In this document: positions 24,331 through 52,142 of the stretch, piece after piece
How positions within the stretch are numbered: position 1 is the stretch's first letter
Layout of the letters: each line of letters opens with the position of its first letter
Assembly: GCA_030706635.1 (NCBI GenBank)
Contig: JAUZOD010000019.1
Location: 1 to 61,675 of the forward strand
DNA length: 61,675 nucleotides
Direction of reading: 5' to 3'
Origin: Bacteroidota bacterium
GTDB lineage: Bacteria > Bacteroidota > Bacteroidia > Chitinophagales > Chitinophagaceae
Position numbers and translations under genes: made by a program
The notes under the pieces: model-generated
Databases searched by the model: none
Told to the model about the DNA's origin: nothing
Seen by the model: the letters and a program-made list of their open reading frames with translations, nothing else

Positions 24331-27300
24331 ATGGCTATTAAAAAAGAAAATCGTCCCAAAGCCACTTTCTCCAAAATTACCATCGGGCTTGCTTCTCCCG
24401 ATTCCATCCTGGAAAGATCTTATGGAGAGGTTTTAAAGCCTGAAACGATAAACTACCGAACGTACAAGCCGGAAAGGGATGGCCTGTTCTGCGAACGCAT
24501 TTTCGGGCCTGTCAAGGACTACGAATGCGCCTGTGGAAAATATAAAAGGATCCGGTACAAAGGGATCGTATGTGACCGTTGCGGTGTAGAGGTTACGGAA
24601 AAGAAGGTGCGACGCGAACGCATGGGCCACATCAAACTGGTGGTTCCGGTGGTTCATATCTGGTATTTCAAAAGCCTTCCAAATAAGACAGGCTATCTTT
24701 TGGGCATGAGTTCAAAAAAGCTCGAGAGTATCGTGTATTATGAAAGATATGTAGTGATCCAACCCGGAATCCGCGCTGATAAAAATCAAAATCTCGGAGA
24801 TCTGTTAACCGAGGAAGAATATCTGGAAATCCTGGATACCCTTCCTAAGGATAACCAGTTCCTCACAGACGATGATCCGACAAAGTTCATTGCGAAGATG
24901 GGGGCAGAAGCTGTTCACGATCTGCTACAGCGCATTGACCTCGATCAGCTTTCTTTCGACCTGCGCAATGCAGCTGCTCACGAAACTTCCCAGCAACGTA
25001 AGGCCGATGCTTTAAAAAGACTGAGTGTGGTAGAGGCTTTCCGCGATGCCAACACCCGCATCACCAATCGTCCTGAATGGATGGTCATGCAATACATTCC
25101 AGTTATCCCTCCGGAACTGCGTCCGCTCGTTCCGCTGGATGGTGGCCGTTTTGCCTCTTCAGATCTGAATGATCTCTACCGCCGGGTCATCATCCGGAAT
25201 AACCGGTTGAAGCGCCTGCTGGAAATCAAAGCACCCGAAGTGATCCTGAGGAACGAAAAAAGAATGCTGCAGGAAGCCATTGATTCGCTCTTCGACAATA
25301 GCCGTAAGTCTAATGCCGTAAAAGCAGAAGGCGGACGCGCTTTGAAATCCCTCAGCGATGTGCTCAAAGGGAAACAGGGCCGGTTCCGTCAGAACCTCCT
25401 CGGGAAAAGAGTAGACTACTCCGGTCGTTCCGTGATCGTGGTGGGACCTGAATTAAAACTCCATGAATGCGGGCTGCCAAAGGATATGGCCGCAGAGCTC
25501 TTCAAGCCGTTTATCATTCGTAAACTGATTGAAAGGGGTATTGTAAAAACAGTGAAATCAGCCCGTAAACTGGTAGATCGTAAAGAAGCCATCGTATGGG
25601 ACATCCTTGAAAATATTCTGAAAGGCCATCCGGTTATGTTGAACCGGGCCCCGACACTTCACCGTTTATCCATTCAGGCCTTCCAGCCCAAATTGATCGA
25701 GGGCAAGGCAATCCAGTTGCATCCACTGGTGTGTACGGCCTTTAATGCCGACTTTGATGGTGACCAGATGGCGGTGCACGTTCCGCTGAGTAGCGCAGCC
25801 GTACTGGAGGCCCAGTTGCTGATGTTGTCCAGTCATAATATTCTCAATCCACAAAACGGGACGCCGATTACCCTGCCCTCACAGGACATGGTATTGGGAC
25901 TTTATTATATTACAAAAGGAAGAAAATCTACCGAAAAGGTAAAGGTAAAAGGAGAAGGAAAGGCTTTTTACAGTCCTGAGGAAGTCATCATCGCGTACAA
26001 TGAAGGCCAGCTGGACCTTCATGCTTTTATTAAAGTAAAAGTGAATGTGCGGAATGATCAGGATCAGCTGGAAAAGAAATTGTTGGAAACAACCACCGGC
26101 AGGGTGCTTTTTAATCAGTTCACGCCGGCAGAAGTTGGATTTGTAAACCAGCTGCTGACCAAAAAGTCTCTCCGGGAAATTATCGGGAATATCATTAAAT
26201 GGACAACCGTTCCCAAAACAGCCAAATTCCTGGATGATATCAAGACCCTGGGATTCAGAATGGCCTTCAGAGGTGGTTTGTCATTCAGCATCAATGACCT
26301 GATCATCCCCGATAGCAAAGAGCAACTGCTGGTGAATGCCAAAGTTGAAGTAGACGAAGTATGGGATAACTACAATACCGGTTTAATTACTAATAACGAA
26401 CGATATAATCAGATCGTGGATATCTGGTCCAGGGTGGATACCCGCATTACGGAAACCCTGATCCGCGAGTTGAGTTCCGATAAGCAGGGGTTTAATTCGG
26501 TTTATATGATGCTGGATTCAGGAGCGCGTGGTTCCAAACAACAGATCAAACAGCTGGCAGGAATACGCGGACTGATGGCTAAACCCAGAAAGTCGGGATC
26601 CACCGGAAGCGAAATCATTGAAAACCCGATCCTTTCCAATTTCAAGGGAGGTTTGAACGTGTTGGATTATTTCATCTCCACGCATGGTGCCCGTAAAGGT
26701 CTTGCGGATACTGCCTTGAAAACGGCTGACGCCGGTTACCTGACCCGCCGTTTGGTAGATGTGGCCCAGGACGTGGTGATTAAGGATGAGGATTGCGGAA
26801 CCTTACGCGGCATCGCTACCACGGCCCTGAAAGATAATGAAGACATTGTTGAGCCTTTATACGATCGAATTCTCGGACGTGTTTCCCTCCATGATGTTTA
26901 TGATCCGTCTTCAGATCAGATCATTGCCAGAGGAGGTGTGGAGATTACAGAAGAAGTGGCAAGGAAAATTGAAGAAGCCGGTATTGAAACCATCGAGATC
27001 CGTTCCGTGCTTACCTGCGAAAGCAAAAGGGGTGTTTGTGTAAAATGTTACGGAAAGAATCTCGCTACCGGTTATACCGCCCAGAAGGGGGACGCGGTCG
27101 GCATCATCGCTGCCCAGTCCATTGGTGAACCCGGTACACAGCTTACCCTGCGTACCTTCCACGTGGGTGGTGTTGCGGGCTCGGCATCGGTTGAATCTTC
27201 GCTGATGGCCAAATTTGATGGCACTATTCAGTTTGACGGTTTAAGAACAGTGTTGGCGGAAAATAATGATGGTACCAAGGTGCCGGTGGTTATTGGCCGT

Positions 27301-28626
27301 ACCGGTGAGGTGAGGATCATGGATGTGAAAAATGACCGGTTGCTGATCACCAACAACGTTCCTTATGGTGCGACCCTGACCGTGAAAGACGGACAGAAAG
27401 TGGTCAAAGGAGAAGTGATCTGTACCTGGGATCCATTTAATAATGTAGTCATTTCTGAAATCACCGGAAGACTTAAGTTTGAAAGTGTGCTGGAAGGGTT
27501 CACCTACCGCGAAGAGGCGGATGAACAAACCGGCCACCGCGAAAAAGTAGTTATTGAAACAAAAGACAAAACCAAGATTCCGTCCATCATTGTGGAAGGC
27601 GGAAAGGAAATAAAATCATACAACCTTCCGGTAGGCAGCCACATCATCATGGAAGAAGCGGACGAGGTTCGTGCCGGACAGGTGATTGTGAAGATCCCCC
27701 GTGTTCTCGGTAAGCTGAGGGATATTACCGGAGGTTTGCCGCGGGTTACCGAATTGTTTGAAGCAAGAAATCCCGGTAATCCGGCTGTTGTTTCTGAAAT
27801 AGACGGTGTAGTTGCCTTCGGAAACATCAAGCGGGGTAATCGCGAGATCATCGTGGAGGCTAAGGACGGTATCGTTAAAAAATACCTGGTGCCCCTGACC
27901 CGTCAGATCCTGGCTCAGGATGGTGACTTTATCAAAGCCGGGGCCCAATTGTCTGATGGCCAGATTGCGCCGGCAGATATCCTTTCCATCAAGGGACCAT
28001 TTGCTGTTCAGGAATATGTGGTGAATGAGATTCAGGAAGTTTATCGTCTTCAGGGAGTGAAGATCAATGACAAACACATTGAAGTGATCGTACGCCAGAT
28101 GATGCGTAAGCTGAATATCGTTGATCCCGGAGATACCCGTTTCCTGGAAGATGAAACCGTGGACAAGATTGAGTTCCTCGATGAGAACGATTGGATCTTT
28201 GATAAAAAAGTAGTTACCGACGCCGGTGAGTCTACCAAACTGAAACCCGGACAGATTGTTAGTCTCCGGGAAGTAAGGGAAGAAAATTCCATCCTGCGCA
28301 GGAATGATAAAAAACTTGCGGAATTCCGGGATGCCCATTCAGCCACTTCGGCCCCGATGCTGCTGGGTATTACCAAGGCCTCGCTCGGGACGCAAAGCTG
28401 GATTTCAGCTGCATCTTTCCAGGAAACCACAAAAGTGTTGTCGTCAGCCGCTATCATGGGCAAAACCGACGATATGATGGGCCTGAAGGAGAACGTCATC
28501 ACGGGCCATCCGATTCCGGCCGGTACCGGATTGCGTGAGTTCGAAAATATGATTGTAGGCAGCAAGGAAGAATATGAGCTATTGCAAACTTCCCGTGAAG
28601 CGATGCAATTTGACGAGGAAGAATAG
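24331..28626 (+). CDS. rpoC: DNA-directed RNA polymerase subunit beta'
   Basis: A complete 1431-aa beta' subunit. The N-terminal zinc site has Cys66, 68, 81 and 84; the catalytic Mg motif NADFDGDQ spans 472-479 with Asp474, 476 and 478; the second zinc site is in [11 protein letters not shown]; the bridge-helix/trigger-loop regions ([16 protein letters not shown]) are intact. Unlike in nearly all bacteria it does not follow rpoB, which is about 19.7 kb away on the other strand. It has its own upstream promoter-like box and a strong terminator 25 bases after the stop, so it looks monocistronic. Upstream is a pseudogene. Confidence 0.98.
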
Positions 28627-28650
28627 TCCAAAATTTAAGGAATCATAAGC

Positions 28651-28680
28651 AGTAGGAAGCAGAAATGCTTCCTACTTTTA
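28651..28680 (+). terminator. rpoC terminator
   Basis: An 11-bp perfect stem (AGTAGGAAGCA / TGCTTCCTACT) with a GAAA tetraloop followed by TTTTA, 25 bases after the rpoC stop. Confidence 0.75.
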
Positions 28681-28732
28681 TGTTGGGTACATTGATCGAA
28701 ATCGGATCTTTCATTTAATTGAATTGCATTTT

Positions 28733-29320
28733 ATGAGAAACATGGCGATGGTCCCGGGTATTCTTGCCTTATTACTTTCCGGGGTATTATTTTATGCTGT
28801 TTACCATAAGCCGGTGACTAAACAAGTGGCTTCGCCTGGTTCAGTTGCATCGCCCACCCAGCCGTTCAGGATTGCCTACTTCAACCTGGATTCCCTCGAG
28901 GCTCATTATGAATATTTCAAAGATGTACTTGGCCAGGTGAAGGGAAAGGAAAATGAAATGAATGCAGAATTGAGCGGAATGGAAAAAGGATATCAGAAAA
29001 AGATCAGTGAATGGCAGAAAAAAGGAAATGCTATGTCCCAGGCCGAAAGTGAACAGGCCCAGCAGGAATATGCTCAAATGCAGCAGGCGTACCAGATCAG
29101 AAAGCAAACCCTTCAGGAATCCCTGCTTAAGCATAATGAGGATCTGAAAGCAGATATTCGCAAAAAGATCGAGGACTATCTCAAAGATTACAATAAAGAA
29201 AAGGGATATAATTACATCATCTCTTATGAGTCCAACTCATTCATATATGTAAGAGATACCACCTACAATATTACCGGCGATCTCATTACCGGGTTAAATG
29301 CATTGTACAGGAAAAAGTAG
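28733..29320 (+). CDS. OmpH/Skp-family periplasmic chaperone-like protein
   Basis: A 195-aa protein with an N-terminal signal or signal-anchor (MAMVPGILALLLSGVLFYAVY), then a short Ser/Pro linker and a beta segment RIAYFNLDSLEAHYEYFKDV that is typical of the OmpH/Skp family. Residues ~85-155 are a long charged, Gln-rich coiled coil, which forms the tentacle arms in Skp. It would act in the periplasm on outer-membrane proteins. The start is ATG 28733; an in-frame TTG three codons earlier is less likely. It is downstream of the rpoC terminator and probably has its own promoter. Confidence 0.82.
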   Translation: MRNMAMVPGILALLLSGVLFYAVYHKPVTKQVASPGSVASPTQPFRIAYFNLDSLEAHYEYFKDVLGQVKGKENEMNAELSGMEKGYQKKISEWQKKGNAMSQAESEQAQQEYAQMQQAYQIRKQTLQESLLKHNEDLKADIRKKIEDYLKDYNKEKGYNYIISYESNSFIYVRDTTYNITGDLITGLNALYRKK

Positions 29321-29380
29321 AAAGACGTTCTGAATTCCGGTTTTGCGTCTGATTTACTATCTTCCGGTTTAAATCAATGT

Positions 29381-30853
29381 ATGTCCGGAGAAAGCCCTTC
29401 TTTTAAACCCAGCCTTGGGCTAATGGATGCCACGATGATTGTTGCCGGGTCCATGATTGGTTCCGGCATCTTTATCGTCAGTGCAGACATAATACGCAAT
29501 GTGGGAAGTGCGGGATGGCTTGTCCTGGTTTGGCTGATTACCGGTTTTATGACGATTACTGCTGCGGTGAGTTACGGAGAACTGAGCGGCATGTTCCCGA
29601 AGGCCGGCGGCCAATATATCTACCTCAGGGAAGCGTATAATCCATTGATCGGATTTTTATATGGATGGAGTTTCTTTTCTGTGATTCAAACCGGCACCAT
29701 TGCGGCCGTGGGGGTTGCCTTTTCGAAGTATGCGGCGTATTTGATTCCGGCGCTTAGTGAGGACAATAAACTGATCCGTATGCAAACCGGCATCAACGCC
29801 TGCGGGAATCCCTCCTATTTCAGCATCAGTGCCGCGCAGGTCGCTTCCATTGGCATCATCGGACTGCTAACGTACAGCAACACACGCGGAATCAAAGGAG
29901 GAAAGCGAATCCAGAATATTTTCACCTCCACGAAACTGCTGGCTTTATTCGGACTGATTCTGGCGGGATGGCTGGCCTTTCGTCCAGAAGTATGGCATAC
30001 CAATTGGACTGACGCGTGGACGTCAACCAAAACTTCGCTTAGGGATGTCTGTAATCCATCCCGTGGGTTTACCATCACACCCATCAGCGGAGCCGCTTTA
30101 TTTGGAGGCATCGCAGCAGCCATGGTGGGTTCCGTATTCAGTAGCGATGCCTGGAATAATGTGACTTTCATTGCCGGTGAAATCAAAAACCCGCAAAAAA
30201 ATATTGGCGCCTCCTTGTTTCTGGGTACCCTTATTGTAACGATTATTTATATCGGGGCGAATCTGATGTATATTTCAGTACTCCCCCTGAATGAGATCGC
30301 CCATGCGGACAAGGACCGGATTGCAGTGGCTGCAGCCAGGGTCATTTTTGGACATGGAGGAACTATTATTATTGCCTTACTTATTATGATTGCCACTTTT
30401 GGTTGTAATAATGGCCTGATTTTATCTGGTGCACGCGTTTATTACAGCATGGCCAGGGATGGATTGTTCTTTAAAAATGCCGGCACGCTCAATAAAAATG
30501 CTGTTCCCCAGTGGTCCCTGTGGGCGCAGTTCGCCGTCGCATCCGTGTTATGTCTTAGCGGTAAATACGGGGATTTGCTGGACATGATTTCTTTTGTGGT
30601 GGTGATTTTTTATGTCCTCACCATTGCCGGAATATTCATACTAAGAAAGAGGAAGCCCGATCTGCCGAGACCGTACAGGGCTTTTGGATATCCGGTGCTG
30701 CCGACACTGTATATTTTAATGGGTATTAGTTTTTGCATACTGCTGATTATTTATAAACCCGAATTTACCTGGCCCGGATTAATTATTACCCTTTTGGGCA
30801 TACCCCTGTATTTTATAGCTGTGTCTGGTAACCGGAAAACGACGGATCAATAA
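29381..30853 (+). CDS. APC-superfamily amino acid permease
   Basis: A 490-aa inner-membrane transporter with about 12 hydrophobic segments. The first helix carries the substrate-binding GSMIGSGIFI motif of APC-family (LAT-like) permeases; another conserved region is SVFSSDAWNNVTFIAGEIKNP. The substrate is probably an amino acid, but which one is not readable. The next gene, the heptose kinase, begins one base after its stop codon, so the two are co-transcribed even though no functional tie is obvious. Confidence 0.88.
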   Translation: MSGESPSFKPSLGLMDATMIVAGSMIGSGIFIVSADIIRNVGSAGWLVLVWLITGFMTITAAVSYGELSGMFPKAGGQYIYLREAYNPLIGFLYGWSFFSVIQTGTIAAVGVAFSKYAAYLIPALSEDNKLIRMQTGINACGNPSYFSISAAQVASIGIIGLLTYSNTRGIKGGKRIQNIFTSTKLLALFGLILAGWLAFRPEVWHTNWTDAWTSTKTSLRDVCNPSRGFTITPISGAALFGGIAAAMVGSVFSSDAWNNVTFIAGEIKNPQKNIGASLFLGTLIVTIIYIGANLMYISVLPLNEIAHADKDRIAVAAARVIFGHGGTIIIALLIMIATFGCNNGLILSGARVYYSMARDGLFFKNAGTLNKNAVPQWSLWAQFAVASVLCLSGKYGDLLDMISFVVVIFYVLTIAGIFILRKRKPDLPRPYRAFGYPVLPTLYILMGISFCILLIIYKPEFTWPGLIITLLGIPLYFIAVSGNRKTTDQ

Positions 30854-30854
30854 C

Positions 30855-31850
30855 ATGTCAACAACAGATTTTAAACAGCTTTTTAAAAAATTTTCTTCGG
30901 CGAAGATCGGCGTGATCGGAGACGTTATGCTGGATACCTACTGGTGGGGACAAGTGGATAGAATTTCGCCGGAGGCGCCGGTCCCTATTGTAACGGTGGA
31001 TCGGAAGGAACAACGGATAGGCGGTGCTGCAAATGTGGCGCTAAACCTGTCTTCACTTGGAGCACCGGTAACGATATTCTCCTTGTTGGGTGAAGATGAA
31101 GACGGTTCGATTTTATCGGATTTGCTGAAGGAGCAGCGGATCACTACCTCGTATTTATTAAGAACAGCTTCCCGGATCACAACAAACAAAATGCGCGTGA
31201 TCAGCCGAAACCAGCAGATGCTGCGGCTGGACTCTGAGACGGTGCGGCCTTTGCTGGAGGAAGAACAGCAATTGCTCATCGGTCAGGTTGAAAAATTCAT
31301 CCGGGACGAATCGCCACAGGCCATCATATTTGAGGATTATAATAAAGGGGTCCTTACGGAAAATGTGATCAGTTCCGTTATCCGCCTATGTAAAAAATTT
31401 TCCGTGATCACGGCAGTCGATCCCAAGAGGAAACATTTTTTTCAATATAAAGAGGTGGACATATTCAAGCCCAATCTCAAGGAAGCGCGGGAAGCGCTGA
31501 ATCTATTGCAGGATGAAGCAGATGAGCCATTTCTGCTCTCCATTCACGATGAATTGCAGAAGCAACTGAAACACCGGATTTCCCTTATTACTTTGTCTGA
31601 AAAAGGAGTGTTTTATAAAAGTGCACAAACTTCAGATATTGTACCTTCTTATATAAGGAATGTGGCTGATGTTTCGGGTGCCGGAGATACCGTAGTCGCT
31701 GTGGCTACCCTGATATATGCCATCACAAAAGATGTCAAACTCATGGCGGAGGTCGCCAATCTGGCGGGCGGACTGGTTTGTGAATCCGTGGGTACAGTGG
31801 CCATCAGCAAGCAAAAACTGCTCAAGGAATGCCTGCGGATATTAATTTGA
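30855..31850 (+). CDS. rfaE1: D-glycero-beta-D-manno-heptose-7-phosphate kinase (RfaE1/HldA)
   Basis: A 331-aa PfkB/ribokinase-family protein. It begins with a family-typical GVIGDVMLDTYWWG and the RISPEAPVPIV segment, has the GGAANVALNL signature, and near residue 275 the GAGDT anion-hole motif with the catalytic aspartate. These features are those of the kinase half of HldE; the nucleotidyltransferase half is absent, as in split RfaE1/RfaE2 systems. It provides ADP-heptose precursors for the lipopolysaccharide inner core. The start is one base after the permease stop. Confidence 0.88.
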   Translation: MSTTDFKQLFKKFSSAKIGVIGDVMLDTYWWGQVDRISPEAPVPIVTVDRKEQRIGGAANVALNLSSLGAPVTIFSLLGEDEDGSILSDLLKEQRITTSYLLRTASRITTNKMRVISRNQQMLRLDSETVRPLLEEEQQLLIGQVEKFIRDESPQAIIFEDYNKGVLTENVISSVIRLCKKFSVITAVDPKRKHFFQYKEVDIFKPNLKEAREALNLLQDEADEPFLLSIHDELQKQLKHRISLITLSEKGVFYKSAQTSDIVPSYIRNVADVSGAGDTVVAVATLIYAITKDVKLMAEVANLAGGLVCESVGTVAISKQKLLKECLRILI

Positions 31851-32000
31851 AGATTTGATAACGGACGAATCTGAAAGTGATAAAAATCGCTTTCGGGCAA
31901 TGTCGTTCGCTTTCAACAGCCAGGGAAGTTTATGGCGTATCTGAAAGCAGTAATGGCACCGGAATGAATACAGTTTACCAGATTTTATAATAGCCGGAGG

Positions 32001-32681
32001 ATGAAAAAATACGCTGTGATAGTTGCTGGCGGTTACGGATTGCGGATGGGAGGCTCTCTGCCAAAACAATTTCTGTTAATTCATAACAGACCCGTTCTCT
32101 GGTATACCCTGAATACCTTTCTAAAATCCTTCGAAGATATCCGGATCCTGCTCGTTCTGCCTGCAGAATATTTGGAGATGGGCAGGTCTATCGGCAACGA
32201 CACGGGATCTGCCCACCGGATCGAAATCATTCCCGGAGGGGAAACCCGGTTCCATTCTGTTCAAAAAGGACTAGCCCATGTAAGGGAACGATCCATCGTT
32301 TTTGTACACGATGGTGTCCGATGCCTGCTCAGCCCGGCCCTTATCCACCGTTGTTTTGAGGAAGCGCAGCAATTCGGCTCAGCAGTTCCCTGTATTGATT
32401 CCAAAGATAGTGTTCGGATACTGATGGACGCGGGGTTTGAATCCATAAAAAGAACCAGTATTAAGTTAATGCAGACCCCTCAGACCTTTTTAGGTGATCT
32501 GATTTTGCCGGCATACCAGGCTGAATACAGGGAAGAATTTACGGATGATGCCTCCGTTGTGGAGGCATTTCATCGTCCCATACATCTGGTGGAAGGGGAA
32601 GTGAACAATATAAAGATAACCACACCGCTTGACATTATTCTGGCAGAGAAACTGCTTGAGCAGCCGCATTACCCGTTTTGA
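32001..32681 (+). CDS. ispD: 2-C-methyl-D-erythritol 4-phosphate cytidylyltransferase
   Basis: A 226-aa nucleotidyltransferase of the non-mevalonate isoprenoid pathway: it joins CTP to methylerythritol phosphate. The N-terminal VIVAGGYGLRMG...PKQF nucleotide-binding motif, the VFVHDGVRCL region and the C-terminal TDDASVVE and KITTPLDI segments are typical. A GGAGG directly abuts the ATG, too close to act as a normal ribosome-binding site. It follows rfaE1 by 150 bases and converges on the FemAB-like gene. Confidence 0.92.
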   Translation: MKKYAVIVAGGYGLRMGGSLPKQFLLIHNRPVLWYTLNTFLKSFEDIRILLVLPAEYLEMGRSIGNDTGSAHRIEIIPGGETRFHSVQKGLAHVRERSIVFVHDGVRCLLSPALIHRCFEEAQQFGSAVPCIDSKDSVRILMDAGFESIKRTSIKLMQTPQTFLGDLILPAYQAEYREEFTDDASVVEAFHRPIHLVEGEVNNIKITTPLDIILAEKLLEQPHYPF

Positions 32682-32760
32682 ATTGCGCGGGTGAGAAATG
32701 CGTATTGGCAATGTGCAACAACAGATACGCTGTACGCGGCGCTTTTCTTAGCATCTGCGT

Positions 32761-36382: not shown

Positions 36383-36404
36383 GTCAGGAAACAGTTTGAA
36401 GCAG

Positions 36405-38799: not shown

Positions 38800-38817
38800 C
38801 CAAAATATTTAAGAAGT

Positions 38818-39784: not shown

Positions 39785-39949
39785 TACCCTCCCATGTTTC
39801 TTATTGAATTGGTTGCATTCAAAGGACGGATTCCGTGCGGATAGCTTTGGGAAAAGGGAATGTCCAAAACTACTGAAAATCCATGAATTCACATGACGTA
39901 ATCGGTAAAATGGCAATTTTTTATCCTGCCAGGGAACCATTTCGCCGCA

Positions 39950-42517
39950 TCAGGCCGAATTTCTGGCCGCATTGATTACGCCGAATGAACAGCGGATGAT
40001 CAGTTTCTCGAATATTTCCTTCATGGGGGAGTTTGTATGTTCTAATTCCCGGAACCTGATCAGGGCATATTGTTGTATGGTGCTCAGGGGCAATACGATC
40101 CTTTCGCGCATTTGGATGGATAACTGCTCAATCGGGTAGTCAGACATAAGCTCTTGTTTCCCTGAGAGTTTATAAATAAATTTCCTGGTCAGTTCGAACT
40201 CATTGTAAATGATCGCCCATATTTTCCCGAACCGGGGATGTTTGGAAAACCCTTCCGTCAGCGGAAAGAAACATTTTTTCATCGCCATTTCGCTGTTATC
40301 CAGCAGGGTTTTAAAATAGGGTGAATTGGCATATAATTGTCTTACCTGCTGCCATTTGCCCTTTTTCTCCATTTCAAACAGGGCTGTGCCCACCCCATGA
40401 TATCCGGTTACATTTTGTTTTAGTTGGCTCCACGAGCCTACAAAGGGGATTGCCCGAAGATCCTTAAATTCCAGTTTGCCGGAATTTTTCCTTTTGCTGG
40501 GGCGGCTGCCAATATTGGTTTCACTGTAAAACTGCAACGGGCTCACCACATTCAGGTATTCCATAAAGTCCGGATGGTCCCTTAATCCTGTATAAGATTC
40601 GTAACTGATGGCTGCCATTTCCTCCAGCAAGGATTCCTCTTCTTTGTTGAGCGTAACTTTCCTGGCAGAGAAAAGATCGTTGGCAATGCCGGCATGCACC
40701 AGCTGTTCAATATTGAACTGGGCAGAATCTACCGTCCCGAAATTGGAACTTACGGTTTGTCCCTGAACGGTTAATTGAATTTCTTTGTTGGCGATATTTT
40801 TGCCCAGAGACGCGTAAAACCGGTGTGTTTTTCCGCCGCCACGGGCAGGAGGCCCGCCCCGTCCATCAAAGAAAACCACTCGGACGCCATGGGCCTCGGA
40901 GATTTTTGTAAGCTCTTCCTTTGCTTTATAAATGCCCCAATTGGCCATCAGATAACCGCCATCTTTGGTGCCATCTGAAAATCCAACCATGATGGTTTGG
41001 GTGTTGTTCCGTTTTTTCAGATGCGCCCGGTAGTCTTCCTGGGTGTACAAGGTGCCCATTATCCCGGAAGCATTGTGCAGATCCTCAACGGTTTCGAACA
41101 GCGGCACGATATCTATGTTAAGGGCCTCTTTCTTCCAGCCGCTCAGCAGAAATAAGCCATAGACTTCCATCATATTCAGCGCGCTGTTGCACTGGCTGAT
41201 GATGTACCGGTTACAACCCAGCGGACCATTTTTTTCCTGAATTTTCTTTACTGCCCGGATACTTTCCAGGGTATCATTTACCATGTCGTCCTGGAAAGGG
41301 CTATTCGTAACGGGTTTCAGATGAACGAGGGCCTTAATTTTTTCCGTTTCAGGCAGGGACTCATAATTAGCGGGCAATAACCTTTCCCTTTCCTCTACGA
41401 TCTTCAGCACTTTTACGTGTACTGAGCTGTCCTGACGCAGATCCAGAGTAGCAAAATGAAGCCCGAATATGCGGAGCTTGCTGATAAAGTTTTCCACCAG
41501 ATGCAGGAAAAGCCCGTTATTCTGGTAGATCAGAATTTCCCGTATTCTGCCCATGGCCGCGAGCATGTCCTTGATTTTTAAAGGTGCTTCTGGCCTGGGA
41601 TTGAAAAGTTCCTGGTATAATTGTTCTTCCAGATCGGCTATAATCAGATCAACTTCTTTAAAAGTAAGCCTTCGTTTTAGACGGCGGACATCATAATAAT
41701 AACAACGCAGAATGGCTTCACGTAAGGAATCCACGACCTTCAGGGTTGTGGCTGTTTTTACAAATGGGTTTCCGTCCCGGTCACCGCCTGGCCAGAACCC
41801 CATTTGAATAACCGGGTTCTGATCTGAAACAGCATCGGGAAATTGACTTTTCAAAGAAGAAAGAATCTTGCCGGCTGCATGATAAAATACATTTTCCAAA
41901 TACCAGATCAGGCTTACCGCTTCATCGTAGGGGGTTGGTTTTTGTTTTTTGAGAAAAGGGGTTTTCCCAAGCTGCTGCATGAACATATTGATCTGCGCAG
42001 CATTGTTTTCAATTACCGCCCTGGAAAGATCATTGATGATGCCCAGCACGGGTCCGGGATAAAATTGGGTTGGATGGGCAGTCAAAACCAATCTTACTGC
42101 GTAATCCTTTAATTTCTCTTTCAGTTCCTTTTCTTTGTCGTACTGAACTACTTCAGAAGACAAATGTTTCAGTGTGCCGGCGCCACCCATATCATTTACG
42201 CTCGTAAAGGCAGCGTCCTCCAGTGCATCAAAAAGCACTACCTGCCGCTCAACGTATTGAACGAAACGGAATAGAATATCGGATCTCTCGCGGTCTGTGC
42301 CATCGGGGGAGTGTTTGCTGAAAAAATCGTCTATGATCTGCAGCGGACTTAACTTTTTATGATAGCCTTCTTCGCAATAGGTAAGCAAAAGAGAAAGAAA
42401 TATTCCCGTTTTTTCGATGCGGTGAAAGGGGAGTGAAGTGAACAGGCTATTGTAAAGCTGGAATTTAATGCCGACCAGGTTTTTGAACTCCTGCAATCCG
42501 GACGATTGGTTACTCAT
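39950..42517 (-). CDS. ppc: phosphoenolpyruvate carboxylase
   Basis: An 855-aa enzyme that adds bicarbonate to PEP to form oxaloacetate. The catalytic LTAHPTQ histidine, the FWPGGDRDGNP segment, GFSDGTKDGG and the FFDGRGGPPARGGG loop are all visible. The extreme C-terminus reads RNSA instead of the usual QNTG-type tail. It is divergent from the thr operon with a 332-base shared region, so the oxaloacetate (aspartate) supply lies next to the aspartate-family pathway. Confidence 0.96.
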   Translation of the reverse strand: MSNQSSGLQEFKNLVGIKFQLYNSLFTSLPFHRIEKTGIFLSLLLTYCEEGYHKKLSPLQIIDDFFSKHSPDGTDRERSDILFRFVQYVERQVVLFDALEDAAFTSVNDMGGAGTLKHLSSEVVQYDKEKELKEKLKDYAVRLVLTAHPTQFYPGPVLGIINDLSRAVIENNAAQINMFMQQLGKTPFLKKQKPTPYDEAVSLIWYLENVFYHAAGKILSSLKSQFPDAVSDQNPVIQMGFWPGGDRDGNPFVKTATTLKVVDSLREAILRCYYYDVRRLKRRLTFKEVDLIIADLEEQLYQELFNPRPEAPLKIKDMLAAMGRIREILIYQNNGLFLHLVENFISKLRIFGLHFATLDLRQDSSVHVKVLKIVEERERLLPANYESLPETEKIKALVHLKPVTNSPFQDDMVNDTLESIRAVKKIQEKNGPLGCNRYIISQCNSALNMMEVYGLFLLSGWKKEALNIDIVPLFETVEDLHNASGIMGTLYTQEDYRAHLKKRNNTQTIMVGFSDGTKDGGYLMANWGIYKAKEELTKISEAHGVRVVFFDGRGGPPARGGGKTHRFYASLGKNIANKEIQLTVQGQTVSSNFGTVDSAQFNIEQLVHAGIANDLFSARKVTLNKEEESLLEEMAAISYESYTGLRDHPDFMEYLNVVSPLQFYSETNIGSRPSKRKNSGKLEFKDLRAIPFVGSWSQLKQNVTGYHGVGTALFEMEKKGKWQQVRQLYANSPYFKTLLDNSEMAMKKCFFPLTEGFSKHPRFGKIWAIIYNEFELTRKFIYKLSGKQELMSDYPIEQLSIQMRERIVLPLSTIQQYALIRFRELEHTNSPMKEIFEKLIIRCSFGVINAARNSA

Positions 42518-42666
42518 AGTGCGAAATTAAAATTCGTTCAACAAATCAAGCAGGATATAATAAAAAATCAAAACAATTCATCAAAATCGTTGATTTCTTG
42601 AGAAATTAAATTCATTTGTTTTATTTTCTTTAATATTATTCATTAACTTCACCCCTCGTATCTCCC

Positions 42667-42756: not shown

Positions 42757-42764
42757 AGGGTTGT
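42745..42764 (+). promoter_or_regulatory. leader hairpin overlapping Thr codons and stop
   Basis: A perfect 7-bp stem (ACAACCC with GGGTTGT, loop TGTAAA) covers the last Thr codons and the stop of the thr leader peptide. It is placed where ribosome position would decide whether it forms, as expected of an attenuator pause or antiterminator structure. Confidence 0.6.
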
Positions 42765-42794
42765 ATTTCCACATATTCCCCCTGGGCTGTTGCT

Positions 42795-42830
42795 GCATAC
42801 CTGAACCAGATTATGGTATGCCCTTTTTCC
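42795..42830 (+). terminator. thr attenuator terminator
   Basis: A 7-bp stem (GCATACC with GGTATGC, 13-base loop) is followed by CCCTTTTTCC, 20 bases before thrA. The T run is short and interrupted, so strength is uncertain. Confidence 0.6.
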
Positions 42831-42849
42831 ATATCAAAAAAAATTATTC

Positions 42850-45294
42850 ATGCAGGTTCTTAAGTTCGGCGGCTCTTCCGTAGCCAACGCCGTGAATATC
42901 AGTAAAACGGTACAGGTTATCCGCCAGGCGATCCTGAAAGAAAAGACCATTGTAGTGGTTTCTGCTTTTGGAGGTATGACGGATATACTGTTGCAGTGCG
43001 GCAGCACCGCTGCCCGGGGCGATGAATCTTATAAAGATTCACTGATCCTGATAGAGCAACGTCATCTGGAAACGGTAAGGCAACTCATTCCGGTCGCCAC
43101 CCAGAGCGGCGTACTCAGCATGGTCAAGAAAATCTGCAATGAACTCGAAGACATTTTTAAAGGCATTTTCCTGCTGCAGGAGCTTTCTGACCGAACCAAA
43201 GATGGCGTCGTTGCATTTGGAGAGCTGTTATCCTCCCGTATTCTCTCTGCCGTCCTGACCAGCCAGGGTGTGGAGAATGTCTGGAAAGACTCCCGCGAGC
43301 TGATCATAACGGATTCAAGACACGGGCGTGCGCAGGTGGATTTCCGGGCCACGAAGAAGAAAATGCTGGAATATTTCCGGTCACCTGAGGTTTCCCTGCT
43401 GGTGGTTCCGGGCTTTATTGCTTCGGATGCACAAGGTGTAACCACCACCCTCGGCCGGGGTGGCTCCGACTATACTGCTGCCATTTATGGCAGTGTACTG
43501 GCCTGCGACGGCATTGAAATCTGGACCGATGTATCGGGTATGATGACAGCAGACCCGCGCCTGGTCAGCAATGCCCGGGTGATACCCCATATTTCCTATC
43601 AGGAAGCCATGGAGCTTTCTCATTTTGGCGCTAAGGTGATTTATCCCCCGACCCTTCAGCCGGTCATGAGCAAGGGCATACCGGTATGGGTGAAAAACAC
43701 GTTTGCGCCGACGGATCCGGGAACCCTGATCGAAAAGGTTTCCCGCCGAACCGCCAGCAGTATCCGGGGTATTTCCAGCATCAATCAAATTGCCCTGCTG
43801 AGCCTGGAAGGAAGTGGTATGATAGGCATTCCCGGATTTTCCAAAAGGTTGTTTGAGGCTTTGTCGGGTCACCAGATCAATGTGATCCTGATCACGCAGG
43901 CCTCCTCAGAACATTCCATTTGCGTAGGCGTGGACGTGGTTCAGGCTTCCCTGGCCAAATCGGTTATTGATGCTGCTTTTTTCACCGAGATAAATAACGG
44001 AGACGTACAGCCGCTGATTGTGGAACTGGAATTGGCCATCATAGCGCTGGTCGGAGACAACATGAAAAGCCATCCGGGCATCAGTGGAAAATTATTTGGT
44101 GTATTGGGAAGAAACGGGATCAATGTACGGGCTATAGCTCAGGGATCTTCCGAGCGGAACATCTCTGCCGTCATCTCCACGAAAGACGTGCAGAAAGCAG
44201 TCAATGTGTTACATGAAGAATTTTTTGAGGCCACGTACAAACAGTTGAACCTGTTTATTACCGGCACCGGCAATGTGGGAAAAAGACTGATCCAGCAACT
44301 GCATCAGCAGCACGATTACCTGTTTGACCAGCTTCGGTTACAGGTGCGAGTTACCGGCGTGGCCAACAGCCGCCGGATGCTGATCAATGAGGAAGGGATA
44401 GACCTGAACCACTGGCAGGAATTGCTTGATCAGGGATCTCCCATGAACCTCCGGAACTTCGAAGAGATTATTCATTCCAAAAATCTGCGCAATTCCGTAT
44501 TTGTGGATGTAACCGCCAATAAGGAAGTGGGCACCAGCTATGAGCGCCTACTGCAGAAAAGTGTTGCCGTAGTGGCCTGCAATAAAATTGCGTGTTCATC
44601 CCCCTACTTATATTATCGTAAACTGAAAGATCTTTCCAAAGAATTCAATGCTGCTTTCTATTTTGAAACAAATGTGGGTGCCGGTCTTCCGGTGATCGGC
44701 ACCCTCAACGATTTGCTGAGGAGCGGGGACAAGATCCGCAAAATAGAAGCGGTACTCAGCGGGACGCTCAATTTTGTCTTTAATCATTATAACGGCAAAA
44801 CCTCTTTTGCCAAGGTGGTCAGGCAGGCGCAGGATGAGGGCTATACGGAGCCGGATCCAAGGCTGGACCTCAGTGGCACGGATGTCATGCGCAAGATCAT
44901 GATCCTTGCCCGGGAAGCCGGAAACGTGATCGAAATGGAAGACATCAGCAATAGCGTTTTTCTCCCGGCTTCGTGTAACGCGGGATCCGTGGCGGATTTC
45001 TATAAGGCCCTGGAAAAGGAAGAAACCCATTTTAAAAAATTATATGAAGGGGCAGCGGCAGAAGGCAAAAAACTGAAATTTGTCGCAACCTACGAAAAGG
45101 GCAATGCGTCTGTTGGTCTGCAACATATTGATCCGGCCCACGATTTTTATCATTTATACGGAAAGGATAATATCGTGGTTTTTTATACTGACCGGTACCC
45201 GGAACAACCCCTGGTGATCAAGGGTGCGGGAGCCGGAGCGGAAGTGACTGCCTCGGGCGTGTTTGCTGATATCATTCGTGCAGCGAGCGCCTGA
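42850..45294 (+). CDS. thrA: bifunctional aspartokinase / homoserine dehydrogenase
   Basis: An 814-aa fused enzyme for the first and third steps of the aspartate family. The N-terminal kinase starts KFGGSSVAN and has GRGGSDYTAA; two ACT units follow in the middle (around 310-460, with NINVRAIAQGSSERNISAV-like repeats); the homoserine dehydrogenase half begins with FITGTGNVGKRL. Fusion and length are as in E. coli ThrA, and feedback by threonine through the ACT units is expected. It is first of thrA-thrB-thrC, controlled by the leader upstream. Confidence 0.96.
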   Translation: MQVLKFGGSSVANAVNISKTVQVIRQAILKEKTIVVVSAFGGMTDILLQCGSTAARGDESYKDSLILIEQRHLETVRQLIPVATQSGVLSMVKKICNELEDIFKGIFLLQELSDRTKDGVVAFGELLSSRILSAVLTSQGVENVWKDSRELIITDSRHGRAQVDFRATKKKMLEYFRSPEVSLLVVPGFIASDAQGVTTTLGRGGSDYTAAIYGSVLACDGIEIWTDVSGMMTADPRLVSNARVIPHISYQEAMELSHFGAKVIYPPTLQPVMSKGIPVWVKNTFAPTDPGTLIEKVSRRTASSIRGISSINQIALLSLEGSGMIGIPGFSKRLFEALSGHQINVILITQASSEHSICVGVDVVQASLAKSVIDAAFFTEINNGDVQPLIVELELAIIALVGDNMKSHPGISGKLFGVLGRNGINVRAIAQGSSERNISAVISTKDVQKAVNVLHEEFFEATYKQLNLFITGTGNVGKRLIQQLHQQHDYLFDQLRLQVRVTGVANSRRMLINEEGIDLNHWQELLDQGSPMNLRNFEEIIHSKNLRNSVFVDVTANKEVGTSYERLLQKSVAVVACNKIACSSPYLYYRKLKDLSKEFNAAFYFETNVGAGLPVIGTLNDLLRSGDKIRKIEAVLSGTLNFVFNHYNGKTSFAKVVRQAQDEGYTEPDPRLDLSGTDVMRKIMILAREAGNVIEMEDISNSVFLPASCNAGSVADFYKALEKEETHFKKLYEGAAAEGKKLKFVATYEKGNASVGLQHIDPAHDFYHLYGKDNIVVFYTDRYPEQPLVIKGAGAGAEVTASGVFADIIRAASA

Positions 45295-45309
45295 ATAAAG
45301 ATTTAGAAT

Positions 45310-46236
45310 ATGAAAGAGATAACCATACATGCCCCCGGAACCGTGGCCAATCTGGTTTGCGGATTCGATGTGCTGGGTCTTTGTTTGACCGAGCCCTACG
45401 ACATCATGAAGGTGCGCCTGCTGGATAAAAAAGAAGTGATTATCCGTACTACGGACAACTATCCGTTGCCATCGGATCCTGCATTGAACACAGCCGGTGC
45501 CCCGTTATTGGAGATGATCGGCGGCATGCAGAGGGAGATCGGTTTCGAGGTCAGCATTACCAAGCAGATCAAGCCCGGCAGCGGTATTGGTTCCAGTGCT
45601 GCCAGCGCGGCCGGTGCTGTGGTGGCTGCCAACGAATTGCTGGGGAATATTTTTTCGAAGGAAGAACTCGTGCGTTTTGCCATGTTTGGGGAAAAAGTGG
45701 CTTCGGGTGTTAAACATGCAGATAATATTGCACCTTGTATTTACGGAGGTGTAACCCTTATCCGTTCCATTTTCCCGCTCGATATCATCCCGATCCCGAC
45801 ACCTGCACTTTTTGTTACCGTGGTACACCCTCAGATAGAAGTGCGTACTTCTGATGCCCGGCAAATTCTCCGGAAAGAGGTTTTATTGAAAGATGCTATC
45901 CGGCAGTGGGGTAATATTGCGGGCCTGGTGGCAGGTCTCATGAAGAGTGACTATGATCTCATCGGACGGTCGCTCGAAGATGTGATCATTGAACCCGTGA
46001 GGTCCATCCTGATTCCCGGATTTCACGAGATCAAGAAGGCGTGCCGGGCTGCAGGAGCCATTGGCGGCGGTATTTCCGGTTCGGGTCCTTCGGTATTCAT
46101 GCTCAGCAGGAACCGGGAAACAGCCTGTGTCGTGGAGAACGTCATGAAATCGGTATACGACCGGATCGGGCTAAATTATAATTCGTATGTGACTACGATC
46201 AGTCAGCATGGAGTAACCTGTTTAAATACTTTATAA
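45310..46236 (+). CDS. thrB: homoserine kinase
   Basis: A 308-aa GHMP-family kinase that phosphorylates homoserine. The ATP-binding PGSGIGSSAASAAGAV signature is at about residues 90-105, the N-terminal APGTVANLVCGFDVLGL is typical, and the C-terminal GGGISGSGPSVFML loop closes the active site. It starts 15 bases after thrA and is followed 12 bases later by thrC. Confidence 0.95.
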   Translation: MKEITIHAPGTVANLVCGFDVLGLCLTEPYDIMKVRLLDKKEVIIRTTDNYPLPSDPALNTAGAPLLEMIGGMQREIGFEVSITKQIKPGSGIGSSAASAAGAVVAANELLGNIFSKEELVRFAMFGEKVASGVKHADNIAPCIYGGVTLIRSIFPLDIIPIPTPALFVTVVHPQIEVRTSDARQILRKEVLLKDAIRQWGNIAGLVAGLMKSDYDLIGRSLEDVIIEPVRSILIPGFHEIKKACRAAGAIGGGISGSGPSVFMLSRNRETACVVENVMKSVYDRIGLNYNSYVTTISQHGVTCLNTL

Positions 46237-46248
46237 ACCGGAAGTGGT

Positions 46249-47547
46249 ATGCTTTTTTATAACCTTCGCAAGCCTTCAGAAAAAGTGGATTTCCGTACCG
46301 CTACCATTCAGGGACTGGGTACGGACAAGGGACTTTATTTTCCTGAACAGATTCCGGAATTTCCAAATGAATGGATCCGGAATATTGACCATCTGACGGA
46401 TGAGGAGATCGCTTACGCCGTAGTCAGTCCTTACGTTGGAAATACGATACCGGAAGAGGTTCTGAGAAAAATGGTTGCTGAAACCATTGCGTTTGATATT
46501 CCGTTGGTTCCGGTATCTGAAAATATTTCTGCCCTGGAATTATTCCATGGCCCGACACTCGCTTTTAAAGACGTGGGTGCACGTTTCATGAGCCGTTGCC
46601 TCGGTCATTTCATGAAAGGGAATGCCCGGCCTGTAACCGTTCTGGTGGCTACTTCAGGTGATACGGGAGGAGCTGTCGCCAATGGCTTTTATGAAGTAGA
46701 GGGGGTTCGTGTGGTGATTCTTTATCCATCAGGTAAGGTGAGCAGCGTGCAGGAACTTCAATTAACTACACTGGGGAAAAATATTTCCGCACTGGAAGTG
46801 GAGGGTAGTTTTGATGACTGCCAGGCGCTCGTCAAACAGGCTTTTTCCGATGAGGAGTTGAATTCAACGATTTTTTTAACCTCGGCCAATTCTATTAATG
46901 TCGCCCGTTGGCTGCCACAGCAGATCTACTATCTCCTGGCCTGGAAGCAATGGAAAAATAAAGACAAACCGCCTGTGTTTTCCGTCCCCAGCGGAAATTT
47001 CGGAAATATTTGTGCCGGGTTGCTGGCCTACCATTCGGGATTGCCGGTCACTCATTTTATAGCGGCCTGCAATGCGAATGCGGTTGTACCCGATTTTCTG
47101 AAAAGCGGCGAGTATAAACCGGTAAAGGCAAAAACGACCTTATCCAATGCCATGGATGTGGGAGACCCGAGTAACTTTGTGCGCGTACTGGAATTATTCA
47201 ACCATCAATTTGAACCCCTGAAGCAGACGATGAGCAGCGAAAGTATTTCTGATGAAGAAACGGCCGCCATTATCCGGTCCGTTTATGCTGAACATAGCTA
47301 TTTGATGGATCCGCATGGCGCCGTCGGTTATCTGGCGCTGAAGCGCTATTTGAAGGACCATGCGGGAGATTCAGGAATATTCCTGGAAACAGCACATCCG
47401 GTAAAGTTCTACGATGTGGTTGAGCCCATCATTGAAAAAAGTATTCCGGTGCCGGAGACGGTGAAGATATTACTGAATAGAAATAAAACTCAGGTGAAGA
47501 TAGCGGCTGATTACGATTCTTTAAAGCATTTTTTGCTGGTTAGCTAA
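46249..47547 (+). CDS. thrC: threonine synthase
   Basis: A 432-aa PLP enzyme making threonine from phosphohomoserine. The PLP lysine is in HGPTLAFKDVGARF, the SGDTGGAVA phosphate/PLP region follows, and the FSVPSGNFGN segment is conserved. It belongs to the branch with N-terminal YNLRKPSEKVDF. Last gene of thrABC; no clear terminator follows. Confidence 0.95.
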   Translation: MLFYNLRKPSEKVDFRTATIQGLGTDKGLYFPEQIPEFPNEWIRNIDHLTDEEIAYAVVSPYVGNTIPEEVLRKMVAETIAFDIPLVPVSENISALELFHGPTLAFKDVGARFMSRCLGHFMKGNARPVTVLVATSGDTGGAVANGFYEVEGVRVVILYPSGKVSSVQELQLTTLGKNISALEVEGSFDDCQALVKQAFSDEELNSTIFLTSANSINVARWLPQQIYYLLAWKQWKNKDKPPVFSVPSGNFGNICAGLLAYHSGLPVTHFIAACNANAVVPDFLKSGEYKPVKAKTTLSNAMDVGDPSNFVRVLELFNHQFEPLKQTMSSESISDEETAAIIRSVYAEHSYLMDPHGAVGYLALKRYLKDHAGDSGIFLETAHPVKFYDVVEPIIEKSIPVPETVKILLNRNKTQVKIAADYDSLKHFLLVS

Positions 47548-47669
47548 TCGCGGATCAGGATACCACCTTATACGTCCTCCAGGCAAAACAACCTAGTCTG
47601 GCAATAAAATGGTTATCATCTGCCATTTCTTTAATTTTAGCTTCCTAAATAACCTTTAAAAATAGCATC

Positions 47670-48263
47670 ATGAAAAACAGCAAATGGCTTTTGCTCATGG
47701 CCCTAATTCTGACCACGGCAACTGCGATCAATGCCCAGAAAGTAAAACTCATTGACGGGGATCTCTCTCCGCTCAAATCTGAAAAATCCATCGTGCTGGC
47801 TTTTTCATACGATCCTATGAAAGTCGGGAAGTTTGACCGCGACGGGGACTATGTCAGCAGCAGGAAGCAGGATCTGAATAGTAAGGAACCCGGCCGGGGC
47901 GACACCTGGGCGAATAGCTGGGTTGCTGACCGGGCTGCCCGTTATGAACCCAAATTCACGGAACTGTTTGAAAAATATTCGGTGCTGGCGCCTGCGCAGC
48001 ATGCCAAATACACGCTGATATTCAAAACTACATTTACAGAACCTGGCTGGAATGTAGGCGTTATGAAGAAAAGCGCTTTGATCGATGCGGAAGCCTGGAT
48101 CGTGGAATCGGACAACAAAGACCACGTCGTCGCTAAAATATCCGTGATGAAGTCACCCGGGCGTACTTTCTGGGGTTCAGACTACGATACCGGTGTCAGG
48201 ATTGAAGAAGCATATGCAGCCGCTGGTAAAGCAGTAGGCAGGTTTCTCAAGGATAAGCTATAA
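47670..48263 (+). CDS. exported hypothetical protein
   Basis: A 197-aa protein with a clear signal peptide (KNSKWLLLMALILTTATAINAQ). The mature part has alternating beta-type stretches (YTLIFKTTF, DAEAWIVES, HVVAKISVM), which suggests a small beta-rich periplasmic or outer-membrane-associated domain. No family is recognised. It lies 122 bases after thrC and is ended by a bidirectional terminator shared with rpoB. Confidence 0.75.
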   Translation: MKNSKWLLLMALILTTATAINAQKVKLIDGDLSPLKSEKSIVLAFSYDPMKVGKFDRDGDYVSSRKQDLNSKEPGRGDTWANSWVADRAARYEPKFTELFEKYSVLAPAQHAKYTLIFKTTFTEPGWNVGVMKKSALIDAEAWIVESDNKDHVVAKISVMKSPGRTFWGSDYDTGVRIEEAYAAAGKAVGRFLKDKL

Positions 48264-48284
48264 AGAATGCTTAATTGAGTTTAA

Positions 48285-48318
48285 CAAAAAAGCCGGGCTT
48301 TTCAGTCCGGCTTTATAT
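48285..48318. terminator. bidirectional terminator between the exported protein gene and rpoB
   Basis: An 8-bp stem (AAAGCCGG with CCGGCTTT) has an A run before and T-rich sequence after, so it can end both the rightward gene at 48263 and the leftward rpoB ending at 48339. Confidence 0.75.
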
Positions 48319-48338
48319 TTTGCTTTTAGCCCCGGTGC

Positions 48339-51300: not shown

Positions 51301-52142
51301 GCTTCTTCATCGAGCACCGTGTCCCGTTCCAGAACGATTTCATTACGTTCAATGGAAACCACTTCGCCGGTATCCTCATCCACGAAATCTTCCACCCAGG
51401 TTCTCAATACGCGGGCGGCAAGTTTTTTTCCGAGGTATTTATGCAGTGTTTTTTTATCCACTTTCACTTCGTCGGCCATGCCGAAAAGAGCGAGGATATC
51501 TTTATCTGTCTCGTATCCGATCGAACGAAGCAGGGTAGTAACGGGAAATTTCTTTTTCCGGTCAATATAGGCAAACATCACATTGTTGATGTCTGTCGCA
51601 AATTCCATCCAGGCTCCCTTAAACGGAATAACGCGGGCTGAATAGATCTTGGTGCCATTCGGGTGAATGGACTGGCCGAAGAATACACCCGGAGAACGGT
51701 GCAATTGGGAAACAACCACCCTTTCAGCTCCGTTGATCACGAAGGTTCCCCGGGGGGTCATATAGGGAATATTTCCCAGAAATACATCCTGCACGATGGT
51801 CTGGAAGTCCACGTGTTCTTCATCATTACAGCTCAGGCGCAGCTTGGCCTTCAACGGAACAGCGTAAGTTAGTCCGCGTTCCATGCACTCTTCAATAGTA
51901 TAACGGGGCGGATCAATAAAGTAGTCCAGGAATTCCAGCATGAAAATGTTCCGGGTATCCGTGATCGGAAAATTTTCCTTGAACACCTTGAACAAGCCCT
52001 CAATATTGCGCTTGTCCGGCGTGGTTTCGAGCTGGAAAAATTCTTTAAAAGATTGGATCTGTACTTCTAGCAGGTCTGGCGTTTCAGCAAGGTGTTTGAT
52101 CTTTCCTAAATTGACCCTTGTTTGGAGCTTGGTGGAAGACAT
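48339..52142 (-). CDS. rpoB: DNA-directed RNA polymerase subunit beta
   Basis: A complete 1267-aa beta subunit. The rifampicin region ([34 protein letters not shown] split over a Ser/His/Arg-rich loop), the active-site AGRHGNKG segment, and the C-terminal [21 protein letters not shown] are intact. It follows rplL but is ended by its own terminator; rpoC is missing from its normal place behind it. A TAACTTTG box 153 bases upstream suggests its own promoter, with a repeat between rplL and that box. See the rpoC entry. Confidence 0.98.

Follow-up and report, generated by a model that had tools for sequence, protein, structure and literature searches.

In bacteria, the two largest RNA polymerase subunits, beta and beta′, are encoded by the last genes of the beta operon, rplK–rplA–rplJ–rplL–rpoB–rpoC, and the adjacency of rpoB and rpoC is treated as a near-universal rule and as the textbook case of an operon that balances its subunits. 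Rare layouts include an rpoB–rpoC fusion in Helicobacter and Wolbachia and the rpoC1/rpoC2 arrangement of cyanobacteria. More generally, the operon life-cycle model describes the destruction of an operon followed by the acquisition of a new promoter. Here we analyse a 61,675-nucleotide stretch of DNA (the window), which is one entire contig (C74) of a genome in 162 contigs (4.58 Mb, completeness 99.93%) that is placed in the Chitinophagaceae by its named rpoC matches. The window resembles the beta operon in the order and orientation of rplKAJL–rpoB, preceded by tuf, tRNA-Trp and nusG, but rpoC does not follow directly 3′ of rpoB on the same strand. Instead, the two genes converge from opposite strands across 19,712 bases, parted by a gene block that lies between them in relatives and, in the window, by a probable inversion as well.

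Like the Helicobacter/Wolbachia fusion and the cyanobacterial rpoC1/rpoC2, this is a rare departure from the standard layout; in those taxa the genes are fused or rpoC is divided, whereas in the Chitinophagaceae both proteins are intact and the genes stand apart. The life-cycle model is matched in that a conserved operon has been disrupted and a promoter of its own precedes the downstream gene. What sets the present case apart is that the genes encode the two largest subunits of one essential complex, that the break is found repeatedly within one order, and that the leader has a partial likeness to the one of the former partner. In listings of open-licence papers we found no description of split rpoB/rpoC in Bacteroidota, and published work on the evolution of the gene cluster that holds rpoBC shares the subject and treats other phyla. 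Operon breaking with promoter gain is already known; what is new here is which genes it concerns, how many genomes show it, and that the leaders are partly matched.

The explanation that we favour, with a probability of roughly 60% for the whole, is that a threonine–isoleucine/valine–leucine (thr–ilv–leu) biosynthesis block arrived at the rpoB–rpoC junction, that the separated rpoC gained a promoter, that a later inversion produced the order in the window, and that subunit balance is kept by a matched promoter class and leader. The genes at issue are:

24331–28626, plus strand: rpoC (RNA polymerase beta′ subunit), monocistronic-looking; 1431 amino acids (aa); five Pfam domains, RNA_pol_Rpb1_1 to _5; TIGR02386, 1698.4 bits
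48339–52142, minus strand: rpoB (RNA polymerase beta subunit); 1267 aa; six Pfam RNA_pol_Rpb2 domains; TIGR02013, 1821.2 bits
52510–54744, minus strand: rplL, rplJ, rplA and rplK, 5′ of rpoB (Pfam)

An earlier, first-pass annotation of the window had described both genes as full length, 19.7 kb apart and facing each other on opposite strands, with rplK-A-J-L-rpoB in ancestral order. Coordinates and Pfam bear this out, as all domains are present in both proteins. Each gene occurs once in the genome: TIGR02386 finds one rpoC, matched as two pieces, and TIGR02013 gives a single rpoB match.

Distribution of the separated genes

We called a pair adjacent when both genes lie on the same strand with a gap below 2.5 kb, which takes in two wider gaps of 2,080 (G173) and 1,008 nt (G118). 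Of 133 genomes searched across the phylum, seven belong to the Chitinophagaceae and one had no match; the genes are adjacent in all 125 outside the family (125/125), with gaps of 24–402 nt. Among 122 Chitinophagaceae genomes, 72 are adjacent, 35 are split, six are unresolved and nine lack one gene (three) or both (six), so that 35 of the 107 resolvable genomes are split. Seventeen of these splits are seen on one contig. Genes on different contigs occur in 24 family genomes: 12 were read at least 3 kb upstream of rpoC and found split, six were called split from contig-end distance (G043, G087, G105, G169, G172 and G183), and six were left out of the count (G086, G109, G114, G115, G125 and G144). 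Four split genomes (G081, G117, G176 and G178) consist of a single contig.

The genus of the window is uniform in this respect. Both genes could be located in 28 of its 33 genomes. No adjacent pair occurs among these: 10 show the split within a single contig, and in 18 the two genes fall on separate contigs. Twenty pieces from upstream of rpoC in the genus, about 650 nt each, hold no rpoB end (best match E 0.06). Converging pairs also occur in G017 and G014. In G017 the flanks are those of the window: rpoB stands with the counterparts of 47670–48263, thrC and thrB, and rpoC with those of 20684–22249 and 23486–24121. The split is not peculiar to the source genome. The Chitinophagaceae need not be the only case: among 31 genomes of the order's other families, 20 are adjacent, five lack a gene and six have the genes on different contigs, and by coordinates five of these six (G048, G053, G061, G072 and G075) look split, with one gene deep within a contig that lacks the other.

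Two further genomes are irregular in rpoC itself. G013, of the same genus, has two N-terminal and two C-terminal rpoC pieces ending near the same residue (C15:6-2078, C19:5513-7591, C8:381954-383198 and C10:6-1265), which suggests two rpoC copies, with contamination (2%) as a possible source. In G015 (C266:18025-23158), the rpoC match is broken near residue 445 and its second stretch holds 28 stops, pointing to an insertion in rpoC or an assembly fault.

Promoter and leader of the separated rpoC

The transcription signals of the two genes in the window are as follows:

24148–24178, plus strand: rpoC promoter-like site, with TTG at 24148–24150, a spacing of 20 nt, TACCTTTG at 24171–24178, then CCCTCC
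24179–24330, plus strand: rpoC 5′ leader, about 150 nt; its start is similar among split relatives
24217–24234, plus strand: element TAAAATATTTAATTTCAA of the rpoC leader, 46 nt past the first base of the −7 box; fits the motif of rpoC leaders in the genus, with a position weight matrix (PWM) score of 15.5, the sequence itself belonging to the training set
28651–28676, plus strand: rpoC terminator hairpin, 25 nt past the stop; 0.0 expected in shuffles
52289–52302, minus strand: rpoB −7 box plus next bases, TAACTTTGCCGTCC; the box TAACTTTG is at 52302–52295
52143–52294, minus strand: rpoB 5′ leader; the rpoC-leader motif is weak there (score 4.0, offset 56, about 52229–52246)
48289–48314, no strand assigned: hairpin between the gene u47670 and rpoB, about 25 nt past the rpoB stop; scored on the plus strand only, with the minus-strand T run read from the sequence

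A promoter-like box of its own had been claimed for each gene, with leaders of about 145–150 bases. Both boxes are present, TACCTTTG at rpoC and TAACTTTG at rpoB, and in each case the distance from the first base of the −7 box to the ATG is exactly 160 nt, which gives leaders of that length. According to PMC6847099, the Bacteroidota promoter consensus is TTTG/TANNTTTG, and Flavobacterium johnsoniae shows the −33 motif far less clearly. At rpoC, the full pattern (−7 TAnnTTTG with a −33 TTG at 17–22 nt) is present with a TTG spacing of 20; at rpoB the −7 box is present and the nearest TTG is, by eye, wrongly spaced. Terminators had likewise been proposed behind both genes. The one at rpoC lies where it was placed, 25 bases past the stop; behind rpoB a hairpin exists some 25 nt past the stop, and it is probably a two-way terminator. 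Terminator-like hairpins behind both genes speak against a single rpoB+rpoC transcript in the window.

Promoter gain at the split rpoC is well supported by comparison of upstream sequences. A TAnnTTTG box within 400 nt upstream of rpoC is found in 38 of 40 split genes (9.7 in shuffles) versus seven of 66 adjacent ones (9.8 in shuffles), and TACCTTTG itself occurs in 28 of the 40. In the genome of the window, the pattern TANCTTTGCNNTCC has 19 sites versus two for a reversed-pattern control; they include rpoC, rpoB, the tRNA–tuf operon and genes that read as ribosomal proteins (S20, L13, IF-1/S13/S11, S12/S7, L20 and ValRS were named from translations read by eye, and not from hidden Markov models). 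As rpoC shares its box with rpoB, tRNA–tuf and ribosomal-protein-like genes, it appears to have joined a growth-related promoter class. We envision that rpoC, once separated, acquired a Bacteroidota promoter that looks strong and belongs to the class found before its former partner.

The resemblance may extend into the leader. The motif TAAATTATTGATTTTCAA, built from 26 distinct rpoC leaders of the genus, lies mostly 46–58 nt past the box start (for motif and consensus tests, duplicates were merged and L247, L254 and L256, with a mis-set box, were omitted). Its matrix scores a mean of 8.2 on 29 rpoB leaders of the genus versus 0.4 in shuffles (largest 2.0), with the motif at offset 54–57 in 19 of the 29. 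On rpoB leaders of adjacent genomes (33 usable out of 41) the mean is 7.1 versus −0.4 in shuffles, and 16 of the 33 score at least 8, where 0.9 are expected. Split genomes from outside the genus give 6.6 for 24 rpoC leaders, versus 0.9 in shuffles, and 3.0 for 18 rpoB leaders, versus 0.1. A reciprocal matrix, trained on adjacent rpoB leaders (33 usable out of 39), gives 9.5 in genus rpoC leaders versus 4.5 in shuffles and no signal upstream of 39 adjacent rpoC genes (5.5 versus 5.5). Since the rows of these leader sets are related, a comparison of two consensus profiles is the fairer test. Here, genus rpoC leaders agree with adjacent-genome rpoB leaders at p 0.0028 (positions 14–80) and 0.006 (14–45), and with genus rpoB leaders at p 0.01 (45–80); control leaders (n = 17, mostly tRNA–tuf, at least two sites preceding another gene) give p 0.36 and 0.26. 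Among 242 boxes in the fetched loci, 34 box-plus-motif composites were found, all before rpoB or rpoC (some of these loci overlap), versus one with shuffled downstream sequence. We regard the likeness of rpoC leaders to rpoB leaders as moderately supported.

The strongest competing explanation is an ordinary operon break, in which rpoC took a generic strong promoter and the leader likeness is a common feature of growth genes with no special coupling; we consider this a real possibility, though clearly the lesser one. It gains from the presence of the same box class before the tRNA–tuf operon and ribosomal-protein-like genes, as well as from the within-genome alignments, the weak rpoB motif of the window and the spread of TTGANNNTCA to some family leaders described below; several leader results weigh against the explanation that we favour. 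Kinship among the leader rows makes the shuffle tests overstate, and the consensus p values come from 15 comparisons and are uncorrected. Two of these comparisons are negative: genus rpoC versus genus rpoB over 14–80 (p 0.55) and genus rpoC versus adjacent-genome rpoB over 45–80 (p 0.65). Aligned within genomes over the 56 nt after the box, one of 28 pairs reaches p 0.05, no better than shuffles (the L094 pair, with no box before rpoB, was dropped). In the window, the rpoB leader scores 4.0 for the motif, a weak match that falls under two other box sites of the genome (7.3 and 6.3). The TTGA/TCAA arms of the motif do not covary (141 of 170 pairs in rpoC versus 139.9 when re-dealt, 119 of 165 in rpoB versus 125.2), and TTGANNNTCA also occurs in leaders of other genera that read as tRNA–tuf or rRNA. 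An ordinary break fits less well with the other 17 box sites of the genome, which score at most 7.3 at +40 to +100 versus 15.5 for rpoC, with ten tRNA–tuf leaders read in the genus, which show no motif in the leader itself, scores above 6 being confined to the tRNA gene, and with the reciprocal matrix and consensus tests, which favour rpoB.

Pattern scans show how widely such sequences occur. In the 33 genus genomes, 32 matches (control 2) comprise 13 rpoC leaders, two rpoB leaders and 17 others; a similar pattern in the 122 family genomes gives 65 matches (control 12), of which 17 are by coordinates rpoB leaders, two are rpoC leaders and about a dozen read as tRNA–tuf or rRNA leaders. Where tRNA–tuf leaders were scored, the adjacent genome G145 gave an 8.8 match (offset 55). 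Three ideas about the leader fared less well. A duplicated rpoB leader was not significant by within-genome alignment, the later position-wise tests being moderate and mixed; an RNA hairpin at the motif is not supported, pairing covariation being absent; and an element exclusive to rpoB/rpoC is weakened by the tRNA–tuf- or rRNA-like leaders in the family scan. Against Rfam models at gathering scores, the window gives rRNA and tRNA matches only and no leader RNA family. By eye, a TGGCCA palindrome stands about 45–60 nt past the box in several family rpoB leaders (for example L117 of G117, L176 of G128, and L010) and is rare in rpoC leaders, L092 having one.

The first-pass annotation had argued that equal supply of beta and beta′ would need a new control. 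Some substitute for operon-based balance is indeed required, and its probable form, on moderate evidence, is a promoter of the rpoB class with a partly rpoB-like leader. In the explanation that we favour, beta/beta′ balance would probably be kept by the same growth-linked promoter class and an rpoB-like leader in place of a shared transcript. That the rpoC leader was copied from an ancestral rpoB leader is plausible. A more far-reaching version, in which promoter and leader were copied together and a shared element some 45 nt into either transcript is the site where one factor (perhaps RNA polymerase or an antitermination complex) equalises beta and beta′, is tentative, and we think it rather unlikely.

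The biosynthesis block and a probable inversion

The remaining features that bear on the rearrangement are:

3085–20612, minus strand: gltD-gltB-ilvA-ilvC-ilvN-ilvB-ilvD-leuB-leuD-leuC-leuA, rest of the block (Pfam; order in relatives)
20684–22249, plus strand: 521-aa protein with no Pfam match; in split relatives it is the member of the block closest to rpoC (about 0.2 to 14 kb away)
28724–32681, plus strand: Skp-like protein, amino acid permease, rfaE-like kinase and ispD, downstream of rpoC
39941–39949, no strand: predicted inversion breakpoint (ppc / 38900–39940), from the window order versus G010, G028 and G040
39950–42517, minus strand: phosphoenolpyruvate carboxylase-like gene (ppc); NCBIfam NF000584, 476.6 bits, under its cut-off of 815
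42850–47547, plus strand: thrA-thrB-thrC, the rpoB-side end of the block (Pfam; at the rpoB side in eight of nine split intervals read)

From 25 genomes split on one contig, we read nine rpoB–rpoC intervals. Eight of them (G010, G028, G101, G142, G176, G134, G123 and G040) contain the thr–ilv–leu block, with thrC-thrB-thrA at the rpoB side, followed by ilvA-ilvC-ilvN-ilvB-ilvD, the leu genes and the 521-aa protein towards rpoC; ppc is present behind thrA in five of the eight and gltD-gltB in six. Adjacent genomes carry parts of the block grouped at another place, at distances from rpoC that range from about 150 kb (G085, G153) to 3 Mb (G147, G036). The flank of the block in adjacent genomes proved too variable to serve as a clue to a donor site. 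This distribution points to an ancestor of many Chitinophagaceae in which the thr–(ppc/glt)–ilv–leu block came between rpoB and rpoC; two inversions or a translocation may have brought it there, the resulting order being what is observed. In most of the core clade, it is this arrival that separates the two genes.

Cut off by the block, rpoC would then have stood on its own while largely retaining the genes behind it. The Skp-like gene, permease, rfaE and ispD also stand behind rpoC in many adjacent-pair genomes, and the Skp-like gene is retained downstream of rpoC in 24 of 32 split loci read, which argues that rpoC did not move as a lone gene. Of the earlier suggestion that rpoC had moved or been left by an inversion, the inversion holds; a move of rpoC alone does not, given the retained Skp-like gene and the block in eight of nine intervals. 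We infer that the window's order derives from the block order of its relatives by one later local inversion, which would have parted glt–ilv–leu from thr and, in the window's subclade, left the pair converging 19.7 kb apart. Its second end would lie left of gltD, that is, left of 3085. Not far from this presumed outer end, the contig starts (1–498) with the end of a 23S rRNA gene and then 5S; rRNA operons could have mediated the inversion.

Two sets of genomes fit the block arrival poorly. The G103 interval, 4.2 kb long, contains no block gene. The ilv/leu cluster is found apart from rpoB and rpoC alike in G117, G081, G178 and G129, split genomes assembled in one or two contigs, so that later moves or another origin must be allowed there. 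G103 (L161) and G173 (L162) have co-directional rpoB and rpoC with gaps of 4.2 and 2.1 kb, respectively, and no thr–ilv–leu block gene; these gaps are possible small insertions at the same junction. G103 also has a TACTTTTG box 149 nt before rpoC. Separately, the ilvC match in the G134 interval (L155–L156) is 24% identical versus 88–93% in the other seven block intervals, so this place probably holds a different type of ketol-acid reductoisomerase (KARI).

Origin of the split and its meaning

Phylogeny complicates a single arrival of the block. On a tree of RpoB+RpoC from 79 taxa, split and adjacent genomes are interleaved. A clade that unites every core split genome and nothing else fails the approximately unbiased (AU) tests (p 9e-53 and 8e-37), so a single clean origin of the split was discarded. 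On the RpoC tree, the label "split" requires at least nine changes, eight of them forced by starred branches, and splits beyond the core clade (L133/G161, L044 and L047/L048) look like separate events. In L047 and L048, the −7 box is only 27 nt before the rpoC ATG, leaving a very short leader. A single insertion is what the shared block suggests, and a more complicated history is what the tree suggests. The data do not separate four accounts of this: repeated insertion, rejoining, acquisition of a junction that was still intact, and an error in the tree. The 521-aa protein and the ilv/leu genes gave trees that were weak or disturbed by divergent homologues and did not decide the matter.

One such history is a single split in the core ancestor, after which adjacency was restored in six genomes (L018, G128, G149 and L025/L027/L028) by rejoining or by uptake of the junction from an adjacent relative. 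A clade of the core split genomes plus these six is accepted (p 0.24 and 0.27), L018 has a gap of 539 nt, and the 521-aa proteins of G128 and G149 fall outside those of related split genomes, with weak support. We nevertheless hold restoration to be somewhat unlikely: the six as one clade are rejected (p 0.01), which would call for more than one restoration; their gaps lack any obvious scar or leftover box; trees of the block genes are untidy; and it is difficult to imagine the ends being rejoined precisely. Separate insertions or inversions at a break-tolerant junction in several lineages would account for the nine or more changes, the rejected core monophyly, the outlying splits, the five split-looking genomes of other families and the blockless gap of G103. 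This seems to us less probable again, since the same block with the same end towards rpoC, seen in eight of nine intervals and several core lineages, would need to re-arise each time, as would the similar starts of the rpoC leaders. An assembly or binning artefact, conceivable for a 162-contig draft in which the window is one whole contig, is practically dismissed by the converging pairs in G017 (with the same flanks) and G014, the splits in four single-contig genomes and the absence of any adjacent pair among the 28 genus genomes.

The rpoB junction shows one further peculiarity. By eye, the rplL–rpoB gap of the window (52330–52480) contains short repeated inverted sequences of the GGTTGATGG / CCATCAACC type and similar ones, and comparable repeats occur in the rpoB–rpoC gaps of adjacent genomes (L013, L172 and L174); they are possibly repetitive extragenic palindromic (REP)-like elements.

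In about one third of the resolvable sampled Chitinophagaceae, rpoB and rpoC are no longer neighbours and the separated rpoC has acquired a promoter, and their relatives retain the adjacent pair. Split and adjacent relatives together form a natural experiment on the purpose of the operon, in which beta:beta′ supply, noise and growth control may be compared.

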